Shown: one piece after another, positions 15,150 through 41,759 of the stretch | Layout of the letters: every line of letters begins with the position of its first letter | How positions within the stretch are numbered: the stretch's first letter is position 1 | DNA from: Telopea speciosissima | Lineage: Eukaryota; Streptophyta; Magnoliopsida; Proteales; Proteaceae | Length of the DNA: 64,000 bases | Assembly: GCF_018873765.1 (NCBI RefSeq) | Contig: NC_057918.1 | Coordinates: forward strand, 63,800,871 to 63,864,870 | Direction: 5' to 3' | Position numbers and translations under genes: made by a program | The notes under the pieces: model-generated | Databases searched by the model: none | What the model saw: only the letters and a program-made list of their open reading frames with translations | What the model was told of the DNA's origin: nothing

Positions 15150-16442
15150 TGTAAGTACCTCGGTCCCCGTTGACGGGGTTTCCTCAGCCTTATTGGCGAC
15201 AGACTATCTGTCTGAGTTTATGAGGGTATCATTTTGATACATTATCATGGGATAAGGGCCATACTTCATAAAAATATTAAAATAAAATGAGGAGTTGCCA
15301 CCTAGGGTTAGGGCCTAGGACCCGATGGGTGTAGCCCTATCCGTTATGAACAGAAATGGGCTACAAAATTCCATATGGTCTGGTCAGATATTCGGGTAAT
15401 GGGTCAGGTTACAAGCATGGGAAGGTGTTAGGCACCTATCTTGCCTAGCAAAACCCGGTCTTTCTATTATAGATGCTAAAAGGGCGAATATTCTCTCTTT
15501 CTATGACAATGAGGCTACATAATGTATATTATACCTATATTTACAATATATATATTAAAACGGGAAAACACAAAAGACTACGTTGTAATGACAAAAATGC
15601 AATGATAATATCTTCATAGGGGTATACCTCAGATCTTGATGATCCCCTAGCTCAAGGGAAGACAGATGAATGGACCAACACCGGTTCTTCAAACAGGGTA
15701 ACAGCTCTTTAGATGTGTCTTTCGTTATCTGTAAATAGACAGAATAACGGCTATAAAAAGGAAGTTTTGTTACCTGTAAGCGGACAAAATAACGGCTATA
15801 AAAAGGGACTTTCGTTATCTGTATACAGACGGAATAACGACTTGATCGGGATGGGATCGCTCTTCGGATGTGTGGGTAATCAACGGATCTACCCACAACT
15901 CGAGTGGGTAATCGATGGATCTACCCACAATTCAAGTGGGTAATCGATGGATCTACCCACAACTCAGAACACCGCTAAAAAATTGCTCACAAAGGCCTGA
16001 AAGAGGGGAAGAATCGAGCTGGGAGGGTCTCCCTAAGCTTGGGATTGCTTCAAATGAGGGGAGGGGGACCCTCCTATTTATAGGGGGTGTCCCATTTTCA
16101 CGGCGCCGGGTAAGTTGTCCACAGCGCCATGGAGAACCTCCACGGCGCTATAGGGGACTTTTCCACGGCGCCGTGGATGACATCATCCCACTGATGTCAT
16201 AACACTCCGCAACGGCGTGGCTCCGTACACCACTGCTGTGGGAGGCCTCCACGGGGCCGTGGACAATGTGGTCCCCCTCTTCCTACTTTTTAAGCCTTAA
16301 ATGGGCTTTCTTGGGGTTTTGGATGTGTTTGGGCCCATGGGCCCTATCTTTTTGGTCTTAGGAAAGGGAAAGGGGTGTGATGTCCATTGTCTGTATCCCA
16401 TCGTCATCATCTCCAGGGGGGTGACAAAATTCAGTGTCTACA
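15150..16442 (-). mobile_element. Element B (Tat-type Ty3/gypsy), 3' LTR
   Basis: On the plus strand it runs TGTAAGTACC...GTGTCTACA (1293 bp) and pairs with 47153-48464. The flanking target duplication is CATAT (15145-15149 and 48465-48469). Read on the minus strand it has a promoter-like core: a cluster of palindromes such as TCCACGGCGCCGTGGA (16162-16177), then TATAAATA (plus 16075-16082) and a GGGTCCCC-rich tract. By eye the first 120 bases differ from the partner LTR at about 8% of positions, mostly transitions, so B is fairly old. The polypurine tract abuts its 3' side at 16443. Confidence 0.93.
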
Positions 16443-16460
16443 GTTTGCCCCTCTTTGGCT
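16443..16460 (-). other. Element B polypurine tract
   Basis: On the minus strand it reads CCAAAGAGGGGCAAAC directly against the LTR start. The same tract follows the 3' LTR of element C at 23478-23495. It is the expected plus-strand DNA priming site and confirms minus-strand orientation of the element. Confidence 0.8.
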
Positions 16461-16599
16461 GAGGCCTGTGCCAACAGCCGAAGGGTAAAGACAAAAGGCC
16501 AACTAACTTTGTCACCAAGAGCATGTACTGCTGACGCTTTGCTCAAAGGCGGCAGAGTTGCCAAAATAGGCGGTTAATCACGATGAAATCCTTCGATAA

Positions 16600-17625
16600 A
16601 CCTCAAAAGAAAACTCGGGAAAGCAAATCTTTATGTGAGGGTAATATGGTGTCACTCAACAGGCGGTTAATCGCGATGAAATCTTCCGATAAACCTCGAA
16701 AGAAAAAATTCGGGAATAACCAAATCTTCATGACAACATCGATCACTCGGTAACTCGAAGTAATTTCATTCCTCACTCTTTTATCGGGTGACCCATCCGG
16801 TCATACGTCTGAGGGTAACCATCTTCATTTGGTTTTTCTAAACTCTTTTATCGGGTGACCCACTCGGTAACAGTCTTCATTTGGTTTTTCCAAACTCTTT
16901 TATCGGGTGACCCATTCGGTAACAATCTTCATTTGGTTTTTCCAAATAGTCTTCATTTGGTTTTTTCAAATGGTCTTCCTTTGGTTTTTCCAAACTCTTT
17001 TATTGGGTGACCCACTTGGTAACGGTCTTCATTTGGTTTTTCCAAACTCTCTTCATTTGGTTATCTTCTATTAAGTGACTTTCCGGTCCTGAGAGTAACA
17101 GGCGACCCGAATGGTCATAAATCAAAGACTCTGATAGTCAGGAATCTCTTGTTAAATTTTGAGGAATTATTCGTTAAATCTTGACATGTGTAATGATGAG
17201 ATAGCATTGCGACCATGAGCGTAACGATGTGATGGCATCGCGACCATTTGCATAACGATGAGATGGCATTGCGACCATGAGTGTAACGATGAGAATCTTG
17301 TTTAGGGTTCCTTAGGGCAGCACAAGGTTTTTCCCTAGACTTTTAGGGCATATTGGGGTTTTTCCCTTTGACTTTCAGGGCATCTTGGGGTTTTTCCCCT
17401 AGACTTTTAGGGCATATTGGGGTTTTTCCCCTTGGCATTCAAGGTATCTTGGGGTTTTTCCCCTTGACTTTCTTGAAAACATTTTTTCTTTTCAGGGCCT
17501 TCTTTTGAAAACATTTTCCCCTTGGGGTATTTCTTGAAAACATTTTTCCCTTTTAGGGCCTATTTTGAAAATATTTTTCCTTTCAGGGCCTTTCGTGAAA
17601 ATATTTTTCCTTTAGGTTAGTTTTT
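16600..17625. repeat. Tandem repeat arrays in the 3' region of element B
   Basis: Several unrelated short arrays follow each other. At about 16779-17065 a unit of about 52 bp contains cttttatcgggtgaccca and cttcatttggtttttcc, in four to five copies. At about 17180-17300 a unit contains gatgagatggcatcgcgacc. At about 17325-17470 a unit contains gggcatattggggtttttcc. At about 17480-17615 copies of ttttgaaaacattttccc occur. Plant Tat/Ogre elements are known for hypervariable tandem repeats between integrase and the 3' LTR, which fits this position. Confidence 0.8.
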
Positions 17626-17639
17626 TTTTTTTTTTTTTC

Positions 17640-17740
17640 TCACGGCGCCGTGTGGGCTCCACAGTACCGTGGTAATCCTCCACGGTGCCGTGGAAGTTTC
17701 CATGGCGCCGTGGCTCCAGCCATCTTTGCCTATTTATAAG
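17640..17740 (+). promoter_or_regulatory. LTR-like promoter of the PMD gene in element B
   Basis: On the plus strand four imperfect copies of the CCACGGCGCCGTGG palindrome (17640-17722) are followed by TATTTATA (17731-17738), a ggggtcccccc tract, and the PMD ATG at 17821. The same order (palindromes, TATA, GGGTCCCC-rich tract) is found in the minus-strand promoter part of the LTRs. The internal gene therefore appears to have a promoter copied from, or ancestral to, the LTR promoter. Start site and activity are inferred. Confidence 0.6.
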
Positions 17741-17820
17741 TGGGGTCCCCCCCTTATATCTCTTATCCAGTTTTGTTTCCAAACTCTGCAGTTTTTTCTA
17801 TTTTATGACTTTTGAGTGAG

Positions 17821-20800
17821 ATGGCCTTTCGCAGGCGTCCTCGTCAGTCTTCACACGGTCCTCTCTTGGGCACGACCGATGCGGACGATCGGGTGGGCTG
17901 GTACCCATCCGGGGCGACACTGAAGGACACTTCTCGGCACATCTACTACGCCATTTGGGGACAGTCGCAGGAGGTAAGCATACTTACGTTATCTTTTTCG
18001 TTGATTAATGCCATCGTAGGATTTATTTATTAATTACTGTCATGATCGTCCTAAGGCACGTGATTCGAGGCAAGGGCCCAAATACCGTAATTTAGGCATT
18101 TCTAGGCACATAAACAGATGCGAAACCAACTTAGGCATTTTTAAGCCCATGAATGTAGGCAAAGTCGTATGATACCAAACCGGGCATCTTCTGGCACACA
18201 ACTCGAGGCGAAACTCTAAAACACCAACTTAGGTATTTTAGGCATGCAAACCAAGGTAAAGCTGTTAGATACCAAACCGGGTATCTTTTGGCATGTAAAT
18301 CGAGGCAAAACCCTACAACACCAACTTAGGCATTTTTAGGCACGCAAATCAAGGCAAAACTTTAAAACACCAATTTGGGTTTTTTTTAGGCATGCAAACC
18401 GAGGTAAAACTATTGTATACCAGATTGGGTATCTTTTAACATGTAAATCAAGGTGAAAACCTACAACACCTACTTAGGTTTTTTTAGGCACGCAAATCAA
18501 GACGAGGCTGTCAGATACCAAACCTGGTATCTTTGGGCACATAAATTGAGGCGAAACCCTACAACACCAATTTAGGCATTTTTTAGCATGCAAATCAAGA
18601 CAAAGCCGCCAGATATCAAACCGGATATCTTTTGGCACATACATCGAGGCAAAACTTTAAAACACCAACTTAGGTACTTTAAGCATGCAAATCGAGGTAA
18701 AGCTGTTGGATATCAAACCGGGTATCTTTTGGCACATAAATCGAGGTGAAACCCTACAACACCAATTTAGGCATTTTTAGGCACGCAAATCAAGACAAAA
18801 CTATCAAACACCAAATCATGTATCTTTTGGCACGTAAATCGAGGCAAAACTCTAAAACATCAGCTTAGGTATTTTAGGCACACAAACCGAGGTAAATCCA
18901 TCGGATACCAAATCGAGTATCTTTTGGCACATAAATCGAGGTAGAACCCTACAACACCAACCTAGGCATTTTAGGCACACAAATCAAGACAAAGCCGTCA
19001 GATATCAAATGGGTATCTTTTGGCCTGCAAATCAAGGCAAAACTCTAAAACACCAACTTAGGTATTTAGGCACGCAAACCAAGGTAAAGTCGATGGATAC
19101 CAAATCGAATATCTTTTGGCACATAAATCGAGGTGAAACCCTACAACACCAACTTAGGTATTTTTAGGCATGCAAATTAAGACAAAGACATTGGATACCA
19201 AATTGGGTATCTTTTGGCACATAAATCAAGGCGAAACTCTAAAACACCAACTTATGTATTTTTAGGCATGCAAACTGAGGTAAAGCCATCGGATATCAAC
19301 CAGGTATCTTTTGGCACGTAAATTGAGGCAAAACCCTACAACATCAACTTAGGTATTTTTAGACACGTAAATCAAGATGAAGCCATTAGATACCAAATCG
19401 GGTATCTTTTGGCACACAAATCGAGGCAAAACCCTACAACATCAACTTAGGTATTTTTAGGCATGTAAATCAAGATGAAGCCGTCAGATACCAAACTGGA
19501 TATCTTTCAGCATGAAAATCAAGGCAAGGCCATTAGATATCAAATCGGCTATCTTTTGGCATGTAGATCGAGGCGAAACCATAAAACACCGACTTAGGCA
19601 TTTTTAGGAATGCAAATCGAGGCAAGACTGTCAGATGCCAACCCGATCATCTTTCGGCATAAAAATGGAGGTAAGGCCATTAGATACCAAATCGGCTATC
19701 TTTTGGCATGTAGATCGAGGCAAAATCTAAAACACAGACTTAAGAATTTCTAAGCATGTAAATCGAGGCAAAGGCATTAGACGCCAAATCGGTCATCTTT
19801 TGGCACGGGAATAGTGGCAAGGCCCTAAAATACTGACCTAGGCATTTTTAGGCATGCAAATCGAGATAAAGCTGTCAGATTCCAAATCGGTTATCTTTCA
19901 CGAATCAAGGCGGAGCCCTAAAATACCGACCTAGGCATAAATTGAGACAATTCTCTAGATTTTTTGGCTTAGTCATGTTTAGACTTATATATTCATGTGT
20001 TTATTTTTCTCTTTTTTTGTTTTTTTTTTTAATTTATTGGAATCTAATCAAAATTTTCTTTCTTATGTCTTTGCAGGGTAAGACCATTCCGATGCCAAAG
20101 AAGTATTGTGGCACGGAGAGAGTGAGGGAGTGGTACGGGAGGCTCTACCTGGAGGTACTATCCCCAGTGAGACGGTCTGGACTGGGGCACATCGCTGCCT
20201 GCCTCGTCTTTGAGTTAGATAGCCTAACTGTTCGGGCTCTAGTGGAGAGGTGGTGGCCGAGCACCCACACCTTCCATCTCCCACTAGGAGAGGTGACTAT
20301 CACACCTCTCGATTTCTACATGATCACGGGGCTTCCCTTTGGAGGGGCACCAGTGGCATTGGCCCCAGAGGACCAGGTGGATCACCTCGACTACTGGAGG
20401 CGCATGACTGGGATCTAGGTCACCCAGAGGGGCCTTCCTGCTGCTACTATGAGGCAGGTATGGGAGGAGAAGGGGGTGACAGATCAGTCACCTTCGGAGG
20501 AGCACGATCAGATGGCCCGGTGCTTCCTCCTCTATCTGCTGGCCGAGGTTGTGTTCGGTGATATGATCGGGACAATGACCGTCGACCTTACTTTCTGTCG
20601 GTTCTTCAAGGATTTTGACCTCGCGGCAGGGTACGACTGGGGAGGTTCAACTTATGCTCACCTCCTCTACATGGTGGACTTCCTAGTCCTGGGTTCCCAA
20701 AACCTCATCGGATGCTCCTACGTCTTCTGGGTAAGTCTTTCTCTCTCTCTCTCTCTTCTCTCTTTTTTTATTAACAACTTTATTATTATCCAAACTTATT

Positions 20801-22087
20801 GACTTCTTTTGTTTTTCTGCAGACATGGAGCTACGAGGTCCTAGGCTTTCGGACTCCTCTCTTTAAGGGAGGTGAGGACCAGGGTATTACTTTCCCTAGG
20901 GCCAGGCGATGGTCCAAGGGAACTCTCTTAAAGAGCGACTGCCATAAGGATCTTCCTTCTATTCAGGGCCTCTTGAACGAGCTACGGCTCGAGGATGTGA
21001 GTTCAAGACTACTCTCGTTTATTTTAACTCTGATTTTGCACATATACATTTTTTGTTTGGTAGGTCTCCCTTCGACCCTACCTTCTAGAATATCTCCTTG
21101 AGCCGATCCTATTTGCTCGGGCTTTCGCTTTTTGTTCTCGACAGATCCTCTTTGAGGGTCCATGGGGATTCTCCTTCTACCTAGGGGAGTAGGTGTCCCT
21201 ATAGTAGTCCAAGGAGAGACTCATCCCTTGTCTTCCTCTAGCTCACATGCACACTCCTTCTCTCTTGGAGTCGGAGGAGATTCAAAGCTTGAGGGTCGGT
21301 GAGCCGGGGGCGCAGTTGGCCACTGCCAGGGACTACCCAGTATTTATTTTCCAGGAGATTGTTTGCATCCCTCTCACTTCAGAGGGTCCTCGAGTATGAT
21401 TTCTTTACTCTTTGTCAATCAACCAAGAAACTTATTAAATCATGCTAACTGATTTGGGTTCTTTTACAGTACCCTGTCTGCCCCCTCTTCGCTGGGAGTT
21501 TTGGACAGTCCTCGCGTGCCTCTCTGATGGTAGGGGCAAATCCTGAGGTGGAGACTTCGGGCGGAGTCCCTCCTGTGTGGTTGGCGGGTATGGATGACCA
21601 CATCCCCTACTACCGTCCATGGTTTGTCAAACCCGCTGATCTGAGTATGTCGGACATCAAGTTGAGACCTCCCAGGTCATCGGACCGCGACCTCGGCATC
21701 CCTATCCCATATGATGGGGTAAGGAGATTTCCTTTATTTATTATTTTTTTTAATTCTTGCAAAGCGAAAACCCTCACTTCTCATATCTCTCCCTTTCTGT
21801 TCTTTTAGGTGACCACGGATTGGTACGCCGACATGCGGCGCATGATGGCCAGCGTGGACGAGGTCATTATTTCCAGAGGGGACATGATACGCCACTGGGT
21901 GAGTTTCTTCCCTTATATTTATGGACCTCTTTTTTGTGTTTTATTTTTTGGCTTATTATATTTTTCCTTCCTTTTTCAGAGAAATCAGGCTACGTTCCAC
22001 CAGGCCAAGTCGGAGAGGCATCGACTCGACTCTGAGAGATCTCAGACTGAGCTACCTCATGCCCGAGCCAAGATCGAGGCTTTTTGA
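17821..22087 (+). pseudogene. Plant mobile domain (PMD) gene inside element B, antisense to gag-pol
   Basis: Seven exons can be drawn with GT-AG borders: 17821-17973, 20077-20730, 20823-20996, about 21065-21393, about 21471-21719, 21809-21898 and about 21981-22087. Exon 2 encodes the PMD core: KKYCGTERVREWYG, then SGLGHIAACLVFELD, ERWWPSTHTFHLPLGEVTI and LDFYMITGLPFGG. The last exon is charged and coiled-coil-like (ERHRLDSERSQTELPHARAK). The homologous exons in element C keep the same order and phases. Decay is clear: a TAG at 20416-20418 replaces a Glu codon seen in C, and there are stops in exon 4. PMD proteins such as MAIN and MAIL1 act in silencing and cell-division control; PMD copies in transposons are known, but their function is not. 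Orientation is opposite to gag-pol, and transcription would converge on it. Confidence 0.75.
18050..19960. repeat. ~98-bp minisatellite filling intron 1 of the element B PMD gene
   Basis: About 18 degenerate copies of a unit of about 98 bp. Each has two related halves: one with ggcacgcaaatcgaggcaaaac and accaacttaggtattttta, the other with agataccaaatcgggtatctttt. Spacing between successive gtatcttttggca motifs is 94-103 bp. The array occupies nearly all of intron 1 (17974-20076). A homologous array with the same period fills intron 1 of the PMD gene in element C. Confidence 0.9.
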
Positions 22088-22258
22088 CTTGATAGAGATA
22101 GCGCCGAGGGTACTGGGGTGAGCCTCTTGGTGGAGGATTACCTCTCTGGATGATGTATTATTTCTTTTTTGGTTCTGTGTATATATACTTTTTTTTTTGA
22201 GGAACAAACTTATTGTGGTCATTTGTATGACTTTGGATTCACTCACCTTTGTATATCA
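22088..22258 (+). other. 3' flank of the element B PMD gene, up to the element C insertion
   Basis: AT-rich segment after the PMD stop codon. It ends at the target duplication CAATG (22259-22263), where element C is inserted. The element B sequence resumes at 40727. Confidence 0.6.
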
Positions 22259-22263
22259 CAATG

Positions 22264-23477
22264 TGTAAGTACCATGGTCCTCAACGTTGGACAAGGGTTC
22301 CTCAGCCTTAGGCGGGGGTGTGGGCATAATGACGCCAGGTGATACTGTCGATGTTTAAGAATGATAGTAGGGGGTTGGGATCACGCATAATATGCTAAAA
22401 TAATGTGAAGTCGCCACCTAGGGTTAGGGCTAGGACCCATTAGGTGTAGCCCTCTTCATTGTGAATAGAATCGGGCTACGTGACTCCATATGGTCTTGAC
22501 GAAAGGTCCGGGTAAGGGGTTAGGTTACGAGTGTGGGAAGGTGTTAGGCACCCACCTCGCCCGGCTGAAACCGGTCTCTCTATGATAGATGCTACATAAT
22601 GACGAATATTCTCTCTCTTTTATTGCTGGGATAGGGGGTATTATGAACTGAATTATAATCTAATGAACTACATCATATATGTAAGATATATATACTAAAA
22701 CGATGGAATGTGAAAAGACTACATTGAAATGATAGAAATGTGGTAATTATACCTGTGCAGATATATTCCCTTGGCTCAGGGGAGACGGATGAATGGACCG
22801 ACACCGATTCTTTTTGGGATAGTGTAACAACTCTTTCAAATGATCTGGTGGGGAGCAAACAGACAGAATAACGTCTGTAATCAAGAGGTTTTGGGTTATT
22901 AGCCGTACACTGACGGGATAACAACGCCTAGGGGCAAAAATGCTCTATACTCGAAGGGATAATCAAAGAATCTATCCACGTCGAAGAAGGCTTCACTCAC
23001 TCACACTCTCATAAGAGAAATAGGGGACAGAAGGGTGAAAATGGAGAAAAGGAGGGTGGAAATCACTTGGGGAGGGTCTCTCTACCCAAGAATCCTTAGG
23101 AAATGAGGGAGGGGACCCTCCTATTTATAGGGAGGGCCCCCCTCTCTCTCCTGGCCAGATAAGTCCTCCACGGCGCCGTGGAGGTGTCCACGACACAGTG
23201 GGTGACGTTAGCAAGCTGATGTCACACCCTCTTATGGCACCGTGGAAATCAGGTACACATCTCCACGGTGCCGTGGGAAGGATCCCCACTGCGCCGTGGG
23301 AGCGCAGTGCCTTTTTCCCTTTGTTTTTGGGCCTAAAATGGGCCTTTTTAGGTTAAAAATGTTTTGGGGTTCATGGGGCAGGTGTTTCGGGGTCTGGAAA
23401 GAGGGAAGGTGCATCGTCCATTGTCCGTGTCCCGTTGTCATCATCGCTAGAGGGGGTGACAAAAATCGATGTCTGCA
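22264..23477 (-). mobile_element. Element C (Tat-type Ty3/gypsy), 3' LTR
   Basis: Plus-strand TGTAAGTACC...GTCTGCA (1214 bp), paired with 39491-40721. It is flanked by a perfect target duplication CAATG (22259-22263 and 40722-40726). It shares a block around gtcgccacctagggttaggg and the palindromic promoter module with the LTR of element B, so B and C are subfamilies of one family. It contains a perfect 20-nt palindrome CCTCCACGGCGCCGTGGAGG (23165-23184) and, on the minus strand, TATAAATAGGAGGGTCCCC. By eye its first 380 bases differ from the partner at about 6%, less than the B pair. Confidence 0.95.
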
Positions 23478-23495
23478 GTTTGCCCCTCTTTGGCC
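23478..23495 (-). other. Element C polypurine tract
   Basis: The minus strand reads GCCAAAGAGGGGCAAAC immediately before the 3' LTR, identical in type to the tract of element B. Confidence 0.8.
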
Positions 23496-23689
23496 GTGGC
23501 CTGCGCCAACGGTCAAAGGGTAAAGTCAAAAGACCAACTAATTTTTGTCACCAAGAGCATGTACTGCTGACGCTTTGCTTAAAGGCGGCAGAGTTGCCAA
23601 AGATAGACGGTTAATCGCGATGAAACCCTTCAAAAATCCTCAAAAGAAAATCTCGAAAAAACCCAATTTTTATTATGTGAACGTCGCTC

Positions 23690-24210
23690 AATCAAATTTT
23701 GAGGGTGATGAGGCACCTCTCGACCGAATATTTAGGTTCAGAGGTGTCACCGGGGATGAAGTTTTGAAGAAATTCACTGGGGACTAAAATTCTGAGGGCG
23801 ATAAGGCACCACTCGATCGGAGATCATGTTTTGAGGGTGATAAAACACCACTCGATCGGAGATTAGGTTTTGAGGGTGATAAAGCACCACTTGACCGAGA
23901 ATCAGGTTTTGACAACTCCTCTTGGGATATAGCTTTGGAGGGTGATAAGGCACCACTTGACCGAGAATCAGGTTTTGAGGACTCCACTGGGGATGTATAG
24001 TTTTTAAGGGTGATAAAGCACCACTTGACCGAGAATCAGGTTTTGAAGACTCCACTAGGGATGTATAGTTTGGAGGGGTGATAAGGCACCACTTGATCGG
24101 AGATCAGGTTTTGAGGGTGATAAATCACCACTCGACCGGAGATTAGGTTTTGAGGGTGATAAAGCACCACTCGATCGGAGACAGAGTTTTGATAACTCCA
24201 CTGGGGATCA
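23690..24210. repeat. Tandem repeats in the 3' region of element C
   Basis: A unit of about 40-50 bp built on tgagggtgataaagcaccac and tcgatcggagatcaggttt, in about ten degenerate copies. It occupies the place taken by the 52-bp and other arrays in element B, but the units are different in sequence, in line with the rapid turnover of this zone in Tat elements. Minus-strand ORFs over it are repeat artefacts. Confidence 0.85.
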
Positions 24211-24545
24211 GATATAGACATTTTCCTCTTAGGATATAGGTGAACAATGGTCTCGTGGTGAAAATCAGGTCAAACGTACCTTCATTGGGATTCATTAGAT
24301 ACATATAGAACTATTGACTTGTATGTGAGTGCAAGGGGAATTCTCGTAAAGAAACCCTACTGAGGATGCGGACTGCAAATAGGTGCGGAAATGATCCAAA
24401 CTGATGGGTATGTATAAATGATAGAAGAGCAAATGGAAAAGTAATCCAAAAATGGCCCATTGGTGAATCTGATATGTACAGAATTGTTATTATTTTATTT
24501 TATTTTATTTTATTTATTTATTTATTTTTATTATTATTTTTTTAG

Positions 24546-24738
24546 TCCACGGCGCCGTGTGAGGGTCTACACGACACTGTGTATGGGTGGCACAGTGCTG
24601 GCATGGCCCCGTATGCACGACACCCTGCCAGATTCCATGGCTCCGTGGGGAATCTCCCATGGCACCGTGGGCCGATAGCCTACGGAGCCATGGAGATCTC
24701 CATGGCACCTTGGGCCCGATGTGCTTTTTCTATAAATA
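24546..24738 (+). promoter_or_regulatory. LTR-like promoter of the PMD gene in element C
   Basis: Six or seven imperfect palindromes of the ccacggcgccgtgg type (24546-24715) are followed by TATAAATA (24731-24738), then aagggccctccccctcatttc and the PMD start near 24835. The minus-strand LTR promoter reads palindromes, TATAAATA, then gagggtccccctccctcatttc. The matching TATA context and downstream tract make common origin likely. This is stronger than for element B, because the catttc motif after the C-rich tract is also shared. Confidence 0.65.
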
Positions 24739-24834
24739 AAGGGCCCTCCCCCTCATTTCTTCATTACCATTTTTGCTGCAAAGCTCTGCCATTTTTGCTT
24801 TTTGACTTCCTTTTTATTCACTCACCTTCTCACC

Positions 24835-27800
24835 ATGTCTTTCCCCGACGCGCACGCCAGTCCCAGAGGGAGCTGTTACTCGGTACCGCCGAACGAGATG
24901 CACGGGCCTCTTGGTACCCTTCAGGAGTTACCCTGGCCGATACTGCTCGCCATGGTTGCCGCTCCATATGGGGTTAGGTCAGCTATCTCACTTATGCTTC
25001 AATTCTTGTAATTTTTTTTTTTCCGTACGAAAGAACTTTTAGACCTTGACCTAGGGCCATCCATTAGGCCCTTCCCTAAGTGTTTCTTGACGTGCAAATC
25101 GAGGCTATGTCTCTAGATACCACCTAGGCACCCAATGACACGTGAACCAATGCGAGGCCCTCGGACACTATCCTAAGTATCTTTTGGCACACAAATTGAA
25201 GATGCACTTAAATACCACCTTAGGCACCTAGTGACACGCAAATCAAGGTGAGGCCATTATACATTACCCTGAGTATCTTTTGGCACACAAATTGAGGCTG
25301 TATCTCTAGATACCACCTTAGGCACCTAGTGACACGTAAATCAAGATGAGACCATTCGATACTACCCTAACTATCTTTTAGCACATAAATCGAGGCAATG
25401 CTGCTAGATACCACCTTAGGTACCCAGTGACACGTAAATCAAGATAAAATCACTAGACACTATCCTAAGTGTCTATCGACACACAAATCGAGGCAATGCC
25501 CCTAGATACCACCTTAGGCACCTAGTGACACGTAAACCCAGACGAAACCACTTGACACTACCCTAAGTGTCTGTTGGTATGCAAATCGAGGCGATGCCCC
25601 TAGATACCACCTTAGGTATTTAGTGACACTCAAATCAAGATGAAACCACTAGACACTACCCTAAGTGTCTATCCGAACACAAATCGAGGCGATGTCCCTA
25701 GATACCACCTTAGGCACCTAGTGACACGTAAACCCAGATGAAACCACTTGACACTACCCTAAGTGTCTATTGGTACATAAATCGAGGTGATGCCCCTAGA
25801 TACCACCTTATGTATTTAGTGACATGCAAATCAAGGCGAGGCCATTAGACATTACCCTGAGTGTCTTTTGGCATGCAAATCGAGGCTATGTCTCTAGATA
25901 CCACCTTAGGCACCCAGTGACACGCAAAGGAGTTTTCTTTTCTTAGTCTCTTTTCTTCCCTTCTTTTTTTTTTTTTAGCTCATTTAATTATTGCCCTGAC
26001 TAACAATTCCTCTTATTATTGTTTTTGCAGGGCAAGTCCCTCCCTTTGTCCAAGAAGTATTGTGGGCTGGAGGCCGTTTCAGAGTGTATCCTACTCTCTG
26101 CTCAGTAGTCCGATCCTGGGTGGTGTGGGCCGGTCTAGGACACATCTTCGCTTCTTCCGCCCAACAGCTGAACAATCCTACAGTGAGGGTGTTGATAGAG
26201 AGGTGGTGGCCGAGCACCCACACATTTCACCTTCCCTTTGGTGATATGACTATCACCCCTCTCGACTTCTATATGATCACCGGGCTTCCCTTTGGAGGGG
26301 TGCCCGTGACCCTGACCCCGGACGAACGGGTGGTGGCTTCAGTGGAGCCGTAGGAGAGCTTGGACTTTTATAGGCGGATGCTGGGGATCGAGGTCATTAG
26401 TCGAGAGATCCCTGTAGCGCACTTGAGGGATGTCTAGAGTGAGAGGGTCATGACTGACGAGTCTCCCTCTCCTCTCCTTGATCAGTAGGCTAGATGCTTC
26501 CTCCTCTATCTTCTAGCGGAGGTCGTATTTAGCGACATGATCAGGATGGTGATGGCTGACGCTGCGTACGTCCGATTCTTCCAAGACTTTGATCTAGCCA
26601 CGGGCTATAATTGGGGTGGTTCGGCGTACGCCCATTTCCTCTACATGATGGACTATTTGGTTGTGGGGTCGCCGAACCTCATCGGATGCTACTATGTCCT
26701 TTGGGTAAGCTTTCTTTCCTTTGTTGACTCCTTCTCTTATTGTTTTTTTTTTATTACTTCTAACTGATCTATTTATTACAGACATGGAGCTATGAGGTTC
26801 TCCGATTCCGGGTCCCCACTCTTAAAGCTGGGGATGATCCCGGAACCACTTTTCCTAGGGCTACGCGGTGGTGTAAGTCCCACCTGCTCAGGAGTGGTCG
26901 CCACAAGGACTTCGAGTCCATACGTACCCTCCTGAATGAGCTACGGCTCGAGATGGTATGAATTTTATCTTTATGCTTTTTTATCATGATTTTCTCATTG
27001 TTATTATCTTTCTAACCCTTTTTTTTCTTGACAGACTGCTCCCCGCACTTTTTTGAGGGAGATTATTCTAGAGTCGGACCTGTTCAACAGGACCTCAGCA
27101 CTCTCCGGCTAGCGGATACTCTTTGAGGGCCCGTGGGGGTTCTCCTTCTACATGGGAGAACGAGTATCCCTACAGTGGTCTAACACGTGGCTGATCCTGT
27201 GTCCTCCTCATGCTAGAGTCCACGAGCTGGCCTTGATGGATCGAGAGGAGATCGAGCATTAGAGGGCGGGCGAACCCTGGATAGGGCTAGTGTTAGTCGA
27301 GACAGACAACACCACCTTCCTTTATTGGGAGATAGTCTGCGTCCCGCTTACCCGAGAGGGGCCTCAGGTAAGATCTCCCCTATCTTTCATTTTTTGTTTA
27401 CTCATTAGATTGTTAAGCTAACTCTTGTCTTGCTTTGCTTCTTTTCATGACAGTACCCAGGCCGCCCCGTGGTTCTAGGGGTCTATGGTGGTGGGAGTTC
27501 ATCCCGTGCCTCTCGAGCAGTGGAGGCGGAGTCAGTCGTTGGGCCTTCTGGAGAGGTCCCGACCTTACGGATTGCTGGTCCAGATGACCATATCCCGGGG
27601 TATCGTTCGTGGTTTATCCGCCACCACGAGCCTGGGATGGTCGAGGTCATCTTGCCACCTCCTCAAGCCGCAGATGCTGACCTAGGCCTCCCTCTTCCTT
27701 ATGATGGGCTAAGTACATCCAACTTTCTCGATTCTTATCCATTATTCTTCAAATTCTTGACATCTCGAATGAATACTGTGTCCAGGTGGACGCGAGTCGA

Positions 27801-28142
27801 TATGTTGACATGAGACATCTGATGGCGAGAATGGATGAGATGATTATCTCTTGCATGGATGCGGCCCATCGGACGGTAATGCTTCGCCCCTCTTTTTTTT
27901 TCTTTTCTTTTCCACTTCTTCTCTCTCTTTTTTTTTTTATTTATATCTGTTTGTCTTTGGATTTTGTTCTTCAGAGGGTTGAGCTTGACCATCATCGGAG
28001 GGAGGTCGAACGGTTGAGGCTTACAAACGATCAGCTACAGGTCAACCTCGCCCGAGTTGAGGTCGAGAGAGATGGTCTGAGGATGTCTCAAAGCGGGGAG
28101 GGGGGAGGTTTGGATGTTGATGATTACTCCCCCAAGGAGTGA
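24835..28142 (+). pseudogene. Plant mobile domain (PMD) gene inside element C, antisense to gag-pol
   Basis: Exons by comparison with element B: 24835-24977, 26031-26704, 26782-26956, about 27035-27368, about 27454-27709, 27786-27876 and 27975-28142. The PMD core is in exon 2 (ERWWPSTHTFHLPFGDMTI, LDFYMITGLPFGG), and WGGSAYAHFLYMMDYLVVG follows. The last exon encodes a charged, coiled-coil-like tail ending GGGLDVDDYSPKE. Decay: a one-base shift just after the ATG (the frame continuing as RRARQSQRELLLG is open from 24851), a further shift early in exon 2, and TAG stops near 26350 and 26434. Splice sites are kept better than the frame. The gene ends 396 bp from the stop of the DUF7745-like ORF on the other strand, tail to tail. 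Confidence 0.75.
25030..25930. repeat. ~98-bp minisatellite in intron 1 of the element C PMD gene
   Basis: About nine copies of a unit of about 98 bp with the halves gcacacaaatcgaggcgatgc...ctagataccaccttaggcacc and agtgacacgtaaatcaagatgaaaccac...actaccctaagtgtct. Successive aaatcgagg motifs are spaced 97-101 bp apart. Sequence and period match the array in element B, but the copies within C resemble each other more than they resemble B, as expected of concerted evolution. Confidence 0.88.
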
Positions 28143-28537
28143 CCCCTCCCTTTTTTTTTTTGGAAATATTTGTTGCGCTGTAACTTTGTCACAACCATGT
28201 ATGATTATATTTTTTTGTTCTTTTTTTTCTTTTACAATTATTTGTACATACACACACCCTTCATTATTTTTATTATTATTTTTTTTTCTTTTTTCTTTTT
28301 TTTTTGTTTGTTTATTCCTTGTATAGGTGCTACTATGATTGGTCATGTACACTTTCTTCTTTTCTTCACACAAACGAATTGTTTACTCATCGTTACATGA
28401 ATTTATTGAATACTTCTTTCTTTGAAATGCATACATGACTCAAATCCCTTCCTTAGAAGCACAAATTCCATCAACCAATGGTTCCATTACATGAGAAAGG
28501 ACAAAAAACAAACAAAGATACGAACATTGGACTGATA

Positions 28538-29566
28538 TCACTTGTTTACAACATTTTTCCACATTTCGGATAACAGAATCACCACTTCTTGTATCAATAT
28601 CTCTAGGGTTCTAAAATTCTTCAACTTGGGTTGTTCTTGCTTTAGAGATACTAAGGAATGGATATAAAAATTGGTGTGAGTCAGACCCATGAATCTCACA
28701 TAATTGCACCCTAGTGTTTCTGATTCTTCTTCCTCGGCCTTCATCCAGGGACAATTCCATTGAATTTCTTGAACATCTCTTTCCTCCAAATACTTCTTCC
28801 AGTCTTGGATCTTGTGGAACTCCGGTTTTTCCCTTTTAATTTGGTAATACAGGGGTCGGAGGTGAGGACACGGAATTGGTGCTACCAACTTCAATTTTTC
28901 CATCAACCACATTTGGAACACTGTCGGAGATCCATGAAAGAAGTCGGTTCCGTATTTCTGAGATTGACTCATGGTATCAAACCCTTTGAATGTTTCTGCT
29001 AAAACAGTGGGAATGATGTCGCATCCTTCTTCAATCTGCTTAACTACTTCCATAATCACGGGAGACATGCCTTTTCCTGGAGATGCTAACAGGTACTTCC
29101 CAATCATGCAGAATAAGTATGCCTGCTTTATGCATCTGGTCTGACTTTCTTCTATAGGCCTGTTGTTGTTGAAGATCTTCACAACTTTCAACGCATCCAC
29201 CTTGTCATAATTGAGCACTTACTTCACCTCCTTTCTATTCATGGCAAAGAAATCTTCCAGATCTCTGAAAAGTTGTTCTTTCTTCATGGTTGGGAGGAAC
29301 AATCTTCTTCAAGGGGGTGCCATCATGCAAGCTTGGAATTCTTCGATGGTTGGAGCTAACCAGACTTTTTCGAAGCGAAATGCATATAATTGGGGATTCC
29401 AGCACTTTGATACTTCTCTCAGTAAGTCATGATGGAGCTTAAAACAACCGATTTTCCCTAAGATTGTTAGATGGAGATCCTCTAGAAGCGTGATCTCATC
29501 CACATTCATCCGGAGAGTCCACTGGCGCAACTGTTCGTCCAACCCTTCTTTCTTTGGTCCCCTCAT
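28538..29566 (-). pseudogene. DUF7745/PMD-like ORF downstream of integrase in element C
   Basis: One minus-strand frame of about 342 codons broken by two in-frame stops (TGA at 29309-29311 and a TAA just before 29218). Recognisable blocks: LRMNVDEITLLEDLHL, then WNPQLYAFRF and APTIEEFQACM, then KQAYLFCMIGKYLLASPGKG, IIPTVLAETFKGFD, SPTVFQMWLMEKL and RPLYYQ. From memory this pattern (WNP..F.F...PT.EE., then a leucine-rich helix, then IP..LAET...D and Q.W..E.L) is that of the plant DUF7745 family, which is related to PMD. It lies in the same strand and order as gag-pol, about 380 bp after the integrase end. A shortened homologue occupies the same place in element B. Role unknown. Confidence 0.6.
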
Positions 29567-29950
29567 ACTACCTGTATCAAGGATTGGGTTAGCATTTTAT
29601 GACATAGAATGCATGAATCCTTTGTTAATAACCAGCTCTAGATGACTCTATACCTAAGCTAAGCCAATGAATAAAAGGCCAAATGGCGAGATTTACCCAT
29701 ACATGCAGGGGATGCCGGTTGGCAGAGTTTATGGAAGGAAACCAACACAATGTTCTTTCTTTCTTTTTTTTGTGTTTTTTTTTTTGAGACCGCATTCAAA
29801 TATATCAAGTTGCCTATGTATCCCTTGAGAGGAATCAGGTCGAACGTAGTTCAGGTTACTTCGAGTGACTCAGACGAAATACTTCTTTAATTGGTCCATG
29901 TTAACTAATCCCCAAAGATCTTCTCCATCAAGGTTAGAGAGTTGGACTGC

Positions 29951-30964
29951 CTAGCCTGGCAATATGGCCTTGACTTTGTAAGGTCCGCTCCAGTTGGGCC
30001 AAAACTTTCCCCTTGGATCATGAACAGGAGCTTGCTGCTCTCTCAGAACCAAATCTCCTTCTTCAATGTTTCGAGTGCGCACACCCTTATTGAATGCCCT
30101 AGCCATTCTTTGTTGGTATTTTTTGAGATTGTCCATGGCTTTCATCCTTTTCTCATCCAGGAGATTGAGCTCTTCATATCTGGTCCTTACCCATTCTCCT
30201 TCTGGCAACTAGCTTTGGAGTAAAACTCAGAGGGAAGGGACTTGAATTTCTATGGGTAGCACAGCCTCCATCCCATACACCAAAGAGTATGGGGTTGCCC
30301 CAGTAGATGTTTGGATGGAAGTCCGATATGCCCATAAGGCTAATGGGAGCTTCTCTACCCAGTCATTGTGTGTATCTGCCATCTTTTGCAGTATGACCTT
30401 CATATTTTTGTTGGCTGCTTCTACTGCTCCATTAGTTTGTGGACGATAAGTAGTAGATTTATGCCTCTTAATGCCAAACCTGTCATAGAGTTCCTCCACT
30501 TTTCCCCTGAAGTGCAAGCCTGGATCCGAGATCAATTGCTGGGGTACACCGTATCTGCAAATGATGTTCTCCTTTATGAATTTTGCCACCTTAGCTGAAG
30601 TCAAGACTGAATAGGATTGAGTTTCAACCCATTTTGTGAAGTAGTCGATGGCGACTAACATAAATTGGTGGCCATTTGAAGCTTTTGGAGTTATTTTGAC
30701 AACTACATCAATTCCCCAAGTAGAAAATGGCCAAGGGGCATTCAACGAGTGTAGCTATGTTGGAGGAATATGGATAATATTCACAAATATGTGACATTTA
30801 TGGCATCGCCTTACGAAGGTAGCACACTCAGCTTCCATAGTGGCCCAATAATATCCCATCCTGAGAATTTTCTTGGCTAACATCTTTACATTCATGTGTG
30901 GTCCACATATCCCTTGATGGATTTCTTCCATAATGATTTGAGCATGATCCTTATCTACACACAT
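29951..30964 (-). pseudogene. Element C integrase
   Basis: A single minus-strand frame with a few stops. The N-terminal zinc-binding part is at 30755-30964 (HQGICGPH, then RRCHKCH). The catalytic core at 30227-30745 has the DDE triad: D in WGIDVVVK, D in LISDPGLHF, E in TNGAVEAANKN. The C-terminal GPY/F-type module is at 29951-30208 (GDLVLREQ, NWSGPYKVKAI). The order zinc finger-core-GPY and its position after RNase H are typical of Ty3/gypsy. Stops between the three parts (near 30750 and 30215) show it is no longer functional. Confidence 0.88.
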
Positions 30965-31191
30965 AATAACTGGATGCCATCATAAGACCTCTTGTACAGC
31001 AGGGTCCCCTGGAGGATGAATTGAGTAGCATATTTCTGCAAATGCCTCTTTTCTCTTTCTAAAAAATGTTCAGGGTACCTCCTTTCCCTGATGTAATCCA
31101 CCACCGGGGTGTACTAAGGCCTCCCATCTTTGGTGAGTGCATTGACTGGCTCTCCGTATGCTGGGCTGGTCCTTCTTTCTATCAGAAAAGG

Positions 31192-31782
31192 TCAGATCCT
31201 GTTTTGAGTATCACATTCCACCATGGATGCCAAAGTAGCCAAAGCATCAGCGAACCGATTGTTATCCCTAGGTAGATACTCAAAAGAGACTTCCTTGAAG
31301 CATTGAGTCAGTTGCTCCAAATAAACTTGATATAGCTTCAACTTCTCATCCTTAGTCTTCCATTTTCCTTGTGTTTGACAGATCACAATGGAGGAGTCTT
31401 CGTAAACCCTGATCCTTTCTGCTCCTATAGATAAGGCCATTTCCAACCCAATGACACAGGCTTCATACTCTACTATGTTATTGGTGCAATTGAATTCCAA
31501 TCGGAAGGCCATTGGCAAGTAGAAGTCTTCTGGGGTTATCAGTAATACCCCAGCACCAAACCCCTTTTGATTCGTGGCTCCATCAAAATACAATTGCCAA
31601 CCTTCATTTGGTTCCGTTTCTAAGGATTGCAACTCTTCATCTGGGAAAAGGTCTTCTGTTGCTCGAGAGTCATCTTCTGAGGGGACTGCTGTCAAATGGT
31701 CAGAGATCGCTCGCCCTTTTATAGATTTTTGATTGACATAAGTTATGTCAAATTCTGATAATAGCAGCAACCATCTTTCCAT
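31192..31782 (-). pseudogene. Element C second (archaeal-type) RNase H
   Basis: An open stretch of 196 codons with a second RNase H after the usual RT-RNase H. It has LYFDGATNQKGFGAGVLL (first Asp), NNIVEYEACVIGLEMA (Glu), VYEDSSIVICQ (second Asp) and LPRDNNRFADALATLAS (last Asp). This extra RNase H upstream of integrase is the hallmark of the Tat lineage (including Ogre) of plant Ty3/gypsy elements and is the main reason for the lineage call. Frame shifts separate it from RT (near 31790) and from integrase. Confidence 0.88.
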
Positions 31783-31795
31783 CTCCCTATTAATG

Positions 31796-33231
31796 CTAGT
31801 TTCTCATTTGCGAGATCAATTTGACTAGATGTGATACCATGTAATGCCTTAGGCGCTTAGTTACCCAAACCAGGGATGTGCATGTCTTCTCCACGGGAGC
31901 ATATCGAGTTTCATACTCTAGCAATTTCCTGCTTACGTAGTAAATTGCGTGCTCTTCTCCATCCATCTTGTTGACTTGGGCCATCATTGATCCGATCGTT
32001 GTCTCTCCTACTGACAAATATAGGAGCAAAGGCTCATCGAGCACTGGAGGGACAAGTATAGGGGGAGAAAGCAGATATTCTTTGATTTTCATAAAGGCCT
32101 CTTGGCACTTCTCATTCCACTCTTTCGGCTCTTTCTTCCTGAGAAGTTTGAAGATGGGTTCACAAGTGGATGTCAACCGAGATATGAATCTGCTGATGTA
32201 CTGGATGCGGCCTAAGAATCCTTGCACTTCCTTCTCGGTCTGGGGTGGTGGCATTTCTGTGATGGCCTTTATCTTGTCAGGGTCCACTTCTATCCCCCTT
32301 TCGCTAACAAGGAAACCCAACAATTTTCAGGCCCTTGCCCCAAATACACACTTCTGAGGGTTTAGCCTTAACTTGTATTCTTTGATTCTTTCAAAGAACT
32401 TTTTGAGGGCTACAAAACGGCCCTGTCGGTTAACAGATTTGACTATCATATCATCGACATACACCTCTACTTCTTTGGGTATCATGTCGTGCAATATAGC
32501 AATGGCCGCTCTTTGATATGTTGCCCCAGCATTTTTTAACCCAAAAGGCATCACTTTGTAACAAAATGTTCCCCATGGTGTGGTGCAGGCAGTCTTCTCC
32601 CTATCCTTCAAGCACATACTGATTTGGTTATATCTTGAGAAACCATCCATGAAGAATAGACTAAAATGTCAATGTGTGGTAACGAAAAATCATCCTTAGG
32701 GCTGACCCTGTTTAGGTCTCAAAAATCCACACACATTCTGACCTTCCCATCTTTCTTAGGGACTGGGACAATATTGGATAACCATTGAGGGTACTGGGTT
32801 ACTTGGAGAAACCCTGCATTCTACTGCTTGATGACTTCTTCTCTAATCTTCTCACTCCATTCTGGTCGCATCCTCCTTAATTTCTGCTTGACTGGGTGAG
32901 CATCCGGATATGTTGGTAATTCGTGTTGCACAATCTTTGGATCGATGCCAGGCATATCGTTGTAGGACCAGGCAAAGACTTCCTCAAATTCCTTGAGGAG
33001 AGAGATCATTTGAGATGTTTCGTCATTATTGAGAGAAGAACCAATTTTGATCATTCGAGGGTATTGGTCAGTCCCTACATTTATGGGATTGGTGTCCTCT
33101 CGGACGGGTCGGGCTCTTCTTTGCTCCAATTGTTCTAACAGGTTATGATGTTCTAAGACATGATCATCATCAGAAGAATAGGAAGAAGAAGAAGAAGAAG
33201 AAGCATACTCAGAATCAACAATTTCATTCAT
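31796..33231 (-). pseudogene. Element C reverse transcriptase-RNase H
   Basis: The N-terminal part (32821-33231) has the Tat-typical FAWSYNDMPGIDPKIVQH. It is preceded by a Ser/Asp-rich linker and ends KIREEVIKQ before a TAG. RT continues with PVPKKDGKVRMCVDF and a short deletion near 32660 that removes the DNTVGHTLLS-like block and shifts the frame. Next come YNQISM, WGTFCYKVMPFGLKNAGATYQR and the catalytic YVDDMIVKS (32327-32650). The thumb/connection and first RNase H follow (31796-32323: GFLGRIQYISRFISRLT, IYYVSRKLLEYETRY). At least three frame breaks make it inactive. Confidence 0.88.
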
Positions 33232-33372
33232 GAAAAGGGGAACAGTACAGACAGACCCAACAGACTGAACATTTCCACTTTCCTTAAGGGACTCGGATAC
33301 AGACTCAGGGATAGACTTAGACAGGACTATGCTAGAGCTGGTTATAACTTCAGAATCATTAACATGGAAACC

Positions 33373-34850
33373 TTACATCATTCTTGCCCAATTTGCTATG
33401 GATCCTTGGAGAGGTTGTATGAGAAGATGTGGCGCAGGTCCTTCTTCTTCTTCCTCGATTATTATGGCTACTTCAAATAACTCACTGATCCCTTGATCTC
33501 CTGTAGCTTCCTTCTTGCTTGCTTGATCGAGCTCCATGGCTACCCAATCTACTTCACTTCCGAAGAATATTTCAAGCCCCGGTAGACGTTTGCCCTGCTT
33601 TTGATCGAACCATGGTTCCTGATTTCCATAGTAAGGAAAGTCTTCTTCCTCTTTCACAAAGTACCCATTCAGAGTCTTGAAGTACGGCGTACCATTTACT
33701 GTAGTGTTCTCCCGTCCTGTGCTTTCTTCTTTGGGTCCCTTGGATTAAACCCTAAACCGTGACGGTTGGTATTGGCTTGTATCTCTGGGAATGTTGGTAT
33801 TCCTTGTTGGTTCTTTCCCAACCCCAGTCCTGGGAAGTACTTCATCTTCTTCATGATCCTTACAGTGGCCTTGCTCCATGTCATCGGGAATTTTCCTAGA
33901 CCCAAATCCTCCTCAATTGTAGAGGTAGTACGAATGTGGCCAATTTCAAAACCTCCCAGCTGCACATCCTATGAGAGTGACCCATCTACTGCTATGTTGG
34001 CCAAAATATCCACCATTTCTGGATCCCCAAAGACAGTAATCACCTTTTGGTCATGTATGAATTTCAGCTTTTGGTGGAGACTTGATGCTAGGGCTCCTGT
34101 GGAATGCAGTCATGGCCTCCTGAGCAACATGTTGAAGGATGCTTGAATGTCGATGACTTGGAAGTCTATGGTAAAATAGGCTGGCCCAATCTTAACATTG
34201 GTGGTAAGAATCCTTATCACCTCCCTCCTGAAATTGTCGTATGCTCTGATAGTTTGACTGGATGACTTCATCTTGTCCAGAGATAAACCCATGCATCTCA
34301 CGGCTTTGAGAGGCATCACATTGAGGGCAGACCCATTGTCTATCAGAACCTGGGGAACCTGATTCTTATTACATTTCACAATAATGTAGAGTGCCCGGTT
34401 ATGATTCTTTCCTCCCGGGGGTAAGTCCTCTTCTGAGAAAAAGAGTGACTGAATGGCATAAGTGGCCCTCACTATGTGAGATAATTCTTCAGGTCCCATT
34501 TCTATAGGTACTTGGACCTTGGTGAGAGCTTTCAAAACAGCTTCTCGGTGGGTTGGTGATGCCATTAATAAACCCCAGATTGAGATGTTGGCTTGGGCCT
34601 TCTTCAATTGGTCCAATACTCGATTTTCAGGCTCAACAACCGCCGTTGATTGGCTAGACTGATATTTTTCCACTGTCAAATCCTTATTCTTGAAGTTTCG
34701 GCCACTCTTGGTTTCCGTAACTTTGGACTCCCTTCCTTTGATGACCAACTGGACTAGACAAAAGTTGCCATCCTCTTCGTCACTATCAGTGATGACAATG
34801 GGACCCTTGGGATGAGTTCGGATTTCAGCTCTCTCATCGGATAAGGCCAC
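33373..34850 (-). pseudogene. Element C aspartic protease, G-patch-like segment and linker
   Basis: From 34850 down: an acidic lead-in, then the retropepsin motif VLIDNGSALNVMP (34.4 kb) and the C-terminal block FNMLLRRP (about 34115), equivalent to the usual YNMLLGRPW. In the same frame at 33696-33965 comes a glycine-patterned segment (MKKMKYFPGLGLGKNQQGI, then RHGLGFNPR) that looks like a G-patch RNA-binding motif. After a frame shift the linker 33373-33657 (EDFPYYGNQEPW, EVDWVAMELDQASK) leads to RT. The catalytic residue context DNGS (for D[TS]G[AS]) may be decay. Confidence 0.75.
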
Positions 34851-34870
34851 AATAGACTTCTGGGCTTGGT

Positions 34871-36454: not shown

Positions 36455-36457
36455 TTT

Positions 36458-39471: not shown

Positions 39472-39489
39472 TCCCCAGTGAAGTCGCCA
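39472..39489 (-). other. Element C primer binding site
   Basis: On the minus strand, one base after the 5' LTR, it reads TGGCGACTTCACTGGGGA. Element B has TGGTGACTCTGCTGGGGA in the same place, so both probably derive from one site of the form TGGCGACTCTGCTGGGGA. Ogre/Tat-type elements have been reported to use a tRNA-Arg primer; I have not checked the complement. Confidence 0.75.
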
Positions 39490-39490
39490 T

Positions 39491-40721: not shown

Positions 40722-40829
40722 CAATGACTTCTCTTTCCTCTAGAGGCACAAAGTTTTATTGATAATTGGTTCGAGTACGTGAATACTGAAAAGGTAATTC
40801 AAACATCAAGCTGACATCACTTGTTTGCA

Positions 40830-41450: not shown

Positions 41451-41759
41451 ATAATCCCTGCATCAAGGATCTTATTAGCACCTTGGACATTAATACGTCT
41501 TTAGGTAATAGCTAGCCCCTAACAACCCTAGGTACACTATAAGTCAAAAGGATAGATTTTGAAGGCCAAATGGCGGGATTTACCCCATTTGTAGGGGACG
41601 CCGGTTGGCGGGATTATGGAATGGACTAACAAAGTGCCCCCCCTTTTTTTGTTCTTTTTATTATCTTTCTTTTTTTAGACCACACTCGAACACGTCGAGT
41701 TGCCTACGTATCCCTTGAGAGGAATTAGGTCAAACATAGTTCAAGTTAATTAGAGAATT

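Follow-up and report, generated by a model that had tools for sequence, protein, structure and literature searches.

How does a gene divided by six introns come to sit inside a retroelement, which multiplies by way of an RNA copy? The question is raised by a stretch of 64,000 nucleotides of Telopea speciosissima (contig NC_057918.1, positions 63,800,871 to 63,864,870, forward strand; hereafter the window), in which self-comparison finds two nested long terminal repeat (LTR) retrotransposons, here called B and C, each holding a plus-strand, seven-exon gene for a plant mobile domain (PMD) protein between its integrase and its 3' LTR. It is probable that the family of these elements carries a complete antisense gene of the RNA polymerase II type for this protein, with a TATA promoter, seven exons and six introns, and that the introns are copied intact. 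Two features of the gene are new, namely introns in common with a host gene, and a TATA promoter of its own with a palindrome array in common with the LTRs. In the open-access literature searched, which is cited throughout from those passages of it that were available, we found none that describes introns in an antisense PMD gene of a retroelement.

The antisense gene and its elements

The boundaries of both elements are fixed by 5-bp target-site duplications (TSDs) and by TG..CA LTR ends, and in both a purine-rich tract adjoins the 3' LTR, such that LTRs, TSDs, primer-binding site and polypurine tract are those of Ogre/Tat elements of the Ty3/gypsy superfamily. The primer-binding site of C is one which we take to be for tRNA-Arg, a trait of the Ogre lineage. 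Pfam matches on the minus strand comprise protease (PR), reverse transcriptase (RT), RVT_3 ribonuclease H (RNase H) and rve pieces in C, and gag in B, the pol region of B being located by its DNA similarity to C and not by Pfam. The order Gag-PR-RT-RH-INT (RH, RNase H; INT, integrase) is found, and in C a second RNase H (aRH) lies before the integrase, the identity of the RVT_3 domain as aRH being taken from its Pfam family and position rather than from an RT or RNase H tree. An additional RNase H in this place, after RH and before INT, characterises the Ogre/Retand arrangement (PMC6317226). In other words, B and C are Ogre/Tat-type LTR retrotransposons with gag-pol on the minus strand. Kimura two-parameter divergence between the two LTRs is 0.097 in B and 0.066 in C, and C is inserted in B 110 bp past the stop codon of the B PMD gene.

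The exon borders of the two PMD genes (Table 1) were verified by translation, the ends of exon 1, 17973 and 24977, being those of the first-pass annotation and standing one base beyond where the translation output puts them. All are GT-AG, with the sole exception of the donor of C exon 5, which reads CT. Exons 2-7 are multiples of three in unbroken copies, and their introns are therefore of phase 0. The PMD family PF10536 is matched by a 113-aa piece of B exon 2 (E 6.7e-14; 52.2 bits against a curated cut-off of 34.9) and more weakly by a 72-aa piece of C exon 2 (E 0.0046). The layout that a first-pass annotation of this DNA had proposed, with gag-pol on one strand and a seven-exon PMD gene on the other, is confirmed by TSDs, Pfam and translation. 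Both window copies of the gene are decayed, that of B by five premature stops (one in exon 2, three in exon 4, one in exon 7) and that of C by two 1-nt deletions, by stops (one closing exon 1, two within exon 4) and by the loss of the exon 5 donor. The tandem array in intron 1 is hypervariable, and the arrays of B and C are alike to about 65%. At 26 of 30 loci, C's own included, the two best arrays lying upstream of exon 2 include one with a period of about 98 bp, or a multiple or half-multiple of it.

A family of intron-bearing copies

DNA searches with exons 2-7 of C returned at least 42 matches at at least 40 loci, and the same numbers were obtained with B (own copies included). Near full-length matches, introns included, make up 33 of the 42 for the C query and 28 of the 42 for the B query, and the two match lists, compared by eye, have no place in common. 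An alignment of 31 copies was made from C, B and 29 loci of the C search. Within it, the splice dinucleotides are kept in 25-31 copies at the nine sites that were in register in the tabulation (two donor columns, offset by one base, were excluded from the tally), and none of the 155 short introns has been lost in these copies, which were recovered with intron-containing queries. The T content is 51% in introns and 25% in exons. The expectation that relatives would keep the plus-strand exons is hence borne out by the searches and the alignment together.

The position of the gene is likewise constant. Of 20 downstream pieces, 19 carry integrase antisense to PMD and one (L042, of copy L013) has no integrase match, and a sense extra open reading frame (ORF) between integrase and PMD gene is antisense to PMD at 29 of 30 loci (the set L009-L038, C's own included), being missing in L013. 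Across the family, PMD coding sequence thus runs opposite to gag-pol in the interval from pol to the 3' LTR, which is the placement that defines an aORF-3R. As to transcripts, the NCBI predicted model P0001 (LOC122655199) joins exons 3|4, 4|5 and 6|7 of a B-like copy at junctions matching those inferred here, and this agreement may be taken as a hint, the only one, of plus-strand splicing. In one copy, L028 (C24:224121-224930), PF10536 positions 8-239 lie in one stop-free frame despite intron 2, which seems in this case to be readable through in frame.

Introns in common with a host gene

The genome contains a host PMD gene, L004 (contig C10), to which a protein, P0005, named 'serine/threonine-protein phosphatase 7 long form homolog', is assigned; a Macadamia relative (P0004) is 96% identical to the query, and P0005 has no match among Protein Data Bank sequences. 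The gene has phase-0 introns after residues 41, 256 and 357, plus one phase-2 intron between the last two. A retroelement profile (15 of the 31 copies, rows rich in stops or gaps being left out) was aligned with a host profile (L004 and homologues, 120 aligned, gap-rich rows being dropped) at a probability of 99.8 and E 1.4e-27. In this alignment, the host introns after residues 256 and 357 coincide exactly with retroelement introns 2 and 3, all four being of phase 0. Intron 2 agrees in Pfam coordinates also, the host exon starting at model position 181 (180|181) and the second residue of the retroelement exon standing at 182. By hand arithmetic, the odds of two exact coincidences of position and phase over some 349 aligned residues are of the order of 1 in 100,000. 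With exon 1 added to the alignment, intron 1 lies within one codon of a host intron of the same phase.

The exon-intron structure is, in other words, in common with that of the host MAIN/MAIL (PMD-C) family, at two introns exactly and at a third within a codon, and this is seen between genes with the same domain whose proteins are about 25% identical over the aligned region. The retroelement copies are not themselves genic members of that family, being located in LTR elements. It is most likely, judging from these positions, that introns 1-3 have been carried through many rounds of retrotransposition, as the antisense orientation would allow. The earlier inference that antisense introns survive retrotransposition is strengthened accordingly, both by the positions in common with the host gene and by the count of lost introns. 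A further MAIN-like copy, L006 (C1:55135885-55139481), apparently partly decayed, retains, past the PMD core, a phase-0 intron in the corresponding position.

Also present in the genome are PMD copies that can be read in a single frame. Four of these (L059-L062; 10 kb each from C10:9032200, C1:50232400, C5:40266600 and C3:42926600) belong to a second antisense PMD lineage with an intronless single ORF, in other Tat-type elements whose integrase core is 40-44% identical where long. In all four copies read, integrase lies past the 3' end of the PMD gene and in the opposite orientation; in L060, a second and partial integrase match stands at the locus edge, on the PMD strand and behind the gene. 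Intronless PMD copies had been expected to lie in sense to pol, on the idea that intron loss goes with sense orientation; these four are antisense, and are of a different lineage, one that groups with intronless host genes. In a tree of 26 PMD proteins, which is unrooted, without an outgroup, has long branches and includes two rows of the intronless host type, L059-L062 join the single-ORF host genes L002 and L003 (support 100/99). Six intron-bearing retroelement rows join three Camellia rows, one Kingdonia row and 10 MAIN-like host rows (100/99), and the 10 hostC rows form one side of a branch that has no retroelement rows (81/93; 86% of bootstrap trees).

The direction of transfer could be the reverse, with the host MAIN-like genes descending, introns included, from an antisense retroelement gene. 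Published work describes gypsy-only PMD clades, and leaves both directions open while leaning to domestication (Ikeda 2017, PMC5418596), and our own tree has no outgroup. Nothing decisive stands against such a descent, the host gene having one extra intron and the retroelement gene three of its own, and we regard it as quite possible, if short of probable.

A promoter with palindromes in common with the LTRs

Thirteen copies allow the promoter to be compared (B, C and 11 loci; the rest lie near a locus edge or have no exon 1 in range). The start ATG is conserved in all 13, and TATAAA occurs about 100 bp before it in 11. Upstream of the TATA stand three to five palindromes of the form CCACGGNNCCGTGG (at most two mismatches), giving 49 sites in the 13 promoters against 0.1 expected from base shuffles. 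Across the window there are 25 such sites, against 0.65 expected, and all are in the four LTRs and the two antisense promoters, none being found elsewhere in the 64,000 nucleotides. Among ten additional LTR-side pieces, an LTR is present in nine, each with 1 to 7 sites, the tenth, L071, having neither LTR nor sites. Altogether there are 59 sites over 13 LTRs of 11 elements, with one LTR having a single site. In 11 of the 13 LTRs, the sites are followed downstream by a TATA-like match on the strand of the LTR itself, no such match being found by pattern in L065 and L067. Spacing between sites is 19-23 bp, or about two helical turns, in 33 of 36 promoter intervals and 27 of 46 LTR intervals. Among nine loci of the other PMD lineage and host genes, none has more than one site, and any such site has two mismatches.

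Wholesale derivation of the antisense promoter from an LTR was considered and rejected, the similarities being only short and around the palindromes. Another alternative is that the palindromes are by-products of sequence duplication, that is to say short GC-rich repeats spread by slippage or by exchange between LTR and promoter, and not operators. They are indeed repeated units, and the B promoter and B LTR have weak local similarity around them (blastn E 2e-8). Against this, sites are present in every one of the 13 promoters and 13 LTRs, mostly two helical turns apart, are confined to these places in the window, and precede the TATA-like match in most LTRs. Such a by-product origin appears possible, if on the unlikely side.

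Selection on the coding sequence

The coding sequence bears the marks of selection. Over exons 2-7 of the 31 copies, stops in the annotated frame average 4.4 per copy, where the five remaining frames have 15.7-30.1, and divergence at codon positions 1, 2 and 3 is 0.212, 0.146 and 0.343. After codons with stops or gaps had been removed, the ratio of nonsynonymous to synonymous divergence (dN/dS; pairwise Nei-Gojobori) among relatives of C was 0.34 within a C-like group of 18 copies and 0.31 within a second group of 12. Between the two groups it was 0.23, each exon giving 0.19-0.31, where intron divergence was 0.51. Controls gave 0.10 for integrase (12 by 8 copies) and 0.25 for the sense extra ORF (17 by 12). 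Relative to one reference copy, 29 copies have 43 indels in 1691 exon positions and 227 in 398 intron positions. Between B and C, dN is 0.37 with synonymous sites saturated. On these figures, PMD exons 2-7 show purifying selection in both groups of relatives of C, and the selection that the first-pass annotation had suggested for the gene agrees with dN/dS values so far from 1.

Selection at the level of codons bears on what the antisense gene is for. It has to be considered that the antisense transcript matters and not the protein, convergent transcription giving rise to double-stranded RNA (dsRNA) and small interfering RNAs (siRNAs) that tune the element, with the PMD frame as a by-product. 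Antisense RNAs have been proposed as sources of dsRNA in a review (PMC7264820), and PMD genes are sources of phased siRNAs in tea (PMC10673657). A by-product would, however, hardly account for a dN/dS of this size, for few stops in one frame only, for splice sites that are kept, or for nonsynonymous divergence far under that of the introns, and this explanation is improbable. That the gene is a mere passenger, a host fragment caught once in a burst of copies and with no role in the element, would suit the decay of most copies and of both in the window, but is very hard to reconcile with its presence in two subfamilies as deeply diverged as B and C, with purifying selection in both groups of C relatives, and with the similar promoter design in B.

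A proposed mechanism and its difficulties

What is proposed here on transcription, splicing, binding at the palindromes and PMD function we infer from the sequence. The introns would act as introns for the antisense transcript alone. In the sense genomic RNA they would be presented as their reverse complement, which the spliceosome should not recognise; they would therefore not be removed, and would be reverse-transcribed intact in each round. Transcription from the gene's own TATA promoter would yield an antisense RNA to be spliced into a PMD mRNA, and the exon-intron layout, partly common with host MAIN-like genes, would have been kept while selection preserved the protein. The likeliest reading of the palindromes common to LTR and antisense promoter is that one DNA-binding factor controls the expression of both genomic RNA and PMD by means of the evenly spaced array, and that the PMD protein itself adjusts this control or the element's silencing. 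In the host, MAIN and MAIL1 affect genes bearing a promoter motif (PMC7156037, PMC9899485), and a PMD-linked feedback on the LTR is for that reason a reasonable guess. The more specific proposal, in which the antisense-encoded PMD protein, either by itself or together with a host partner, would act on the CCACGGNNCCGTGG array in the U3 region of the LTR and in its own promoter to form a two-promoter feedback circuit, the spliced gene being held over deep time because it is antisense, is offered tentatively and may well prove wrong.

Several observations weigh against this account. The phase-2 intron of the host gene is absent from the retroelement gene, and retroelement introns 4-6 have no host counterpart. 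In the four copies read, the antisense PMD of the second lineage has no introns, and such a gene can thus do without them. Searching with intron-containing queries favours intron-bearing copies, and intron loss has possibly been under-counted. Exons 2-7 are without stops and frameshifts in just one of the 31 copies, most copies being decayed, and, although indels are much rarer in exons, the length is a multiple of three in only 11 of the 43 exon indels, no real improvement on the 46 of 227 in introns, such that most exon indels are to be read as decay. The dN/dS sample was drawn from relatives of C. Model P0001 is a prediction and a chimera, in which a copia RVT_2 piece is fused to B-like antisense PMD exons. 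Finally, the host 'DOWN' motif CATGCAGTTT, which has been linked to MAIN/MAIL1 (PMC9899485), is not enriched in the window (2 occurrences against 5.1 expected, at most one mismatch).

Relation to known systems

Elements of Ogre/Tat type that encode a PMD protein are likewise Tat-clade Ty3/gypsy elements with an extra PF10536 gene, and were reportedly described by Steinbauerova in 2011, as cited by others. A PMD gene is present in 57% of Ogre elements, and extra ORFs are recorded in Tat elements (Neumann 2019, PMC6317226). Indeed, what the first-pass annotation had called known is in print, for PMD and for antisense ORFs of Ogre/Tat elements alike. In the available passages on published PMD Ogre elements, intron structure, introns common with the host and palindromes common with the LTR are not found. 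Scoring in the 2019 survey was of single ORFs with 250 codons or more (PMC6317226); the longest exon here has 225 codons, and that survey could therefore miss a PMD gene split by introns.

The antisense placement between pol and 3' LTR is the same as that of the aORF-3R of Grande (gene23), RIRE2 and Retand (TRP28); those systems encode TRP28/gene23, whereas the antisense gene here encodes PMD. Grande has an antisense accessory ORF, gene23, with its own promoter, and Retand elements have tandem repeats in the same interval (PMC7264820, PMC11963269). The main text of the Retand paper, as available, has no word starting 'intron' (PMC11963269), and the 2020 review calls for a search for antisense and spliced transcripts (PMC7264820).

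Beyond plants, two comparisons may be drawn. The HBZ gene of the retrovirus HTLV-1 has two exons and a promoter in the 3' LTR. It too is a spliced antisense retroelement gene (PMC2099442), but of an animal retrovirus and for an unrelated protein. For Penelope elements carrying intron-containing genes, retention of introns has been discussed as compatible with an antisense template (PMC3846280); these are a different retroelement type, with host genes mobilised in trans, in contrast to the resident gene described here.

Features of the window

Coordinates are collected in Table 1. The sense extra ORF of C, considered as a candidate second PMD, gives a DUF7745 match at E 0.019 and, in hhalign comparison, a very weak PMD-like match, at E 0.003 (probability 10%) to the host PMD profile and at E 0.65 to the retroelement profile.

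Table 1. Features of elements B and C in the window (position 1 is the first nucleotide of the 64,000)
Feature	Position	Strand	Remarks
Element B	15150..48464	-	Ogre/Tat-type LTR retrotransposon, C nested inside; LTR pair and TSD CATAT
B 3' LTR	15150..16442	-	palindromes 16119-16262 upstream of LTR TATA 16083-16074
B antisense-gene promoter	17640..17739	+	four palindromes and TATA-like CTATTTATAA
B PMD exon 1	17821..17973	+	ATG at 17821
B intron 1	17974..20076	+	filled by 49/98-bp tandem array, 18125-19938
B PMD exon 2	20077..20730	+	one in-frame TGA
B PMD exon 3	20823..20996	+	
B PMD exon 4	21064..21393	+	three stops
B PMD exon 5	21470..21718	+	
B PMD exon 6	21809..21898	+	
B PMD exon 7	21980..22153	+	includes stop codon; one premature TGA
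B 5' LTR	47153..48464	-	palindromes 48123-48288 upstream of TTATAAATAG at 48087-48078
Element C	22264..40721	-	same superfamily as B, 18.5 kb; LTR pair and TSD CAATG
C 3' LTR	22264..23477	-	palindromes 23168-23299 upstream of LTR TATA 23130-23121
C antisense-gene promoter	24635..24739	+	four palindromes (fifth at 24547) and CTATAAATAA
C PMD exon 1	24835..24977	+	1-nt deletion just after ATG; last codon a stop
C intron 1	24978..26030	+	holds 98-bp tandem array, 25061-25928
C PMD exon 2	26031..26704	+	1-nt deletion
C PMD exon 3	26782..26955	+	
C PMD exon 4	27035..27367	+	two stops
C PMD exon 5	27454..27708	+	donor GT reads CT
C PMD exon 6	27786..27875	+	
C PMD exon 7	27975..28142	+	includes stop codon
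C sense extra ORF	28541..29596	-	between integrase and PMD gene; two open pieces; weak DUF7745 match
C integrase region	29954..30979	-	rve match in piece 30230-30754
C RVT_3 (RNase H-like) domain	31195..31803	-	between RT and integrase; Pfam
C reverse transcriptase piece	32330..32668	-	Pfam
C primer-binding site	39472..39489	-	adjoins C 5' LTR; position counted by hand
C 5' LTR	39491..40721	-	palindromes 40409-40543 upstream of CTACAAATAG at 40371-40362

Outside the two elements, at 4696-6423 (+) of the window, lies an open frame of 575 aa, probably a host gene, in which the domains DUF2985 and PLAC8 are found. A direct-repeat pair outside B, 14033-14838 and 50183-50972, is 80% identical, and possibly represents the ends of an older element enclosing B. 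Direct repeats of 1.6 kb at 55572-57203 and 60244-61876 are 98.7% identical, a closer match than that between the two LTRs of either B or C. Near the nest are a copia RVT_2 ORF (9723-10328, minus), an ankyrin-repeat ORF (50827-51435, minus) and a zf-RVT (reverse-transcriptase-associated) ORF (62045-62662, minus).

Implications

Introns are usually read as a sign that a gene has never passed through RNA. A multi-exon gene that has seemingly been copied by way of RNA over a very long time, its introns standing where those of a host gene stand, breaks this rule, and does so in a manner that sequence can put to the test. Surveys that score long single ORFs could miss genes split in this way. For the origin of the MAIN/MAIL silencing proteins, intron positions provide a character that is independent of the protein tree, and the palindromes common to LTR and promoter provide a concrete cis-element with which to ask what the PMD proteins of retroelements do. 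Were the proposal of a feedback circuit to prove right, a spliced gene held for so long in a retroelement because it is antisense would constitute a natural reservoir of intron-containing genes of host type.

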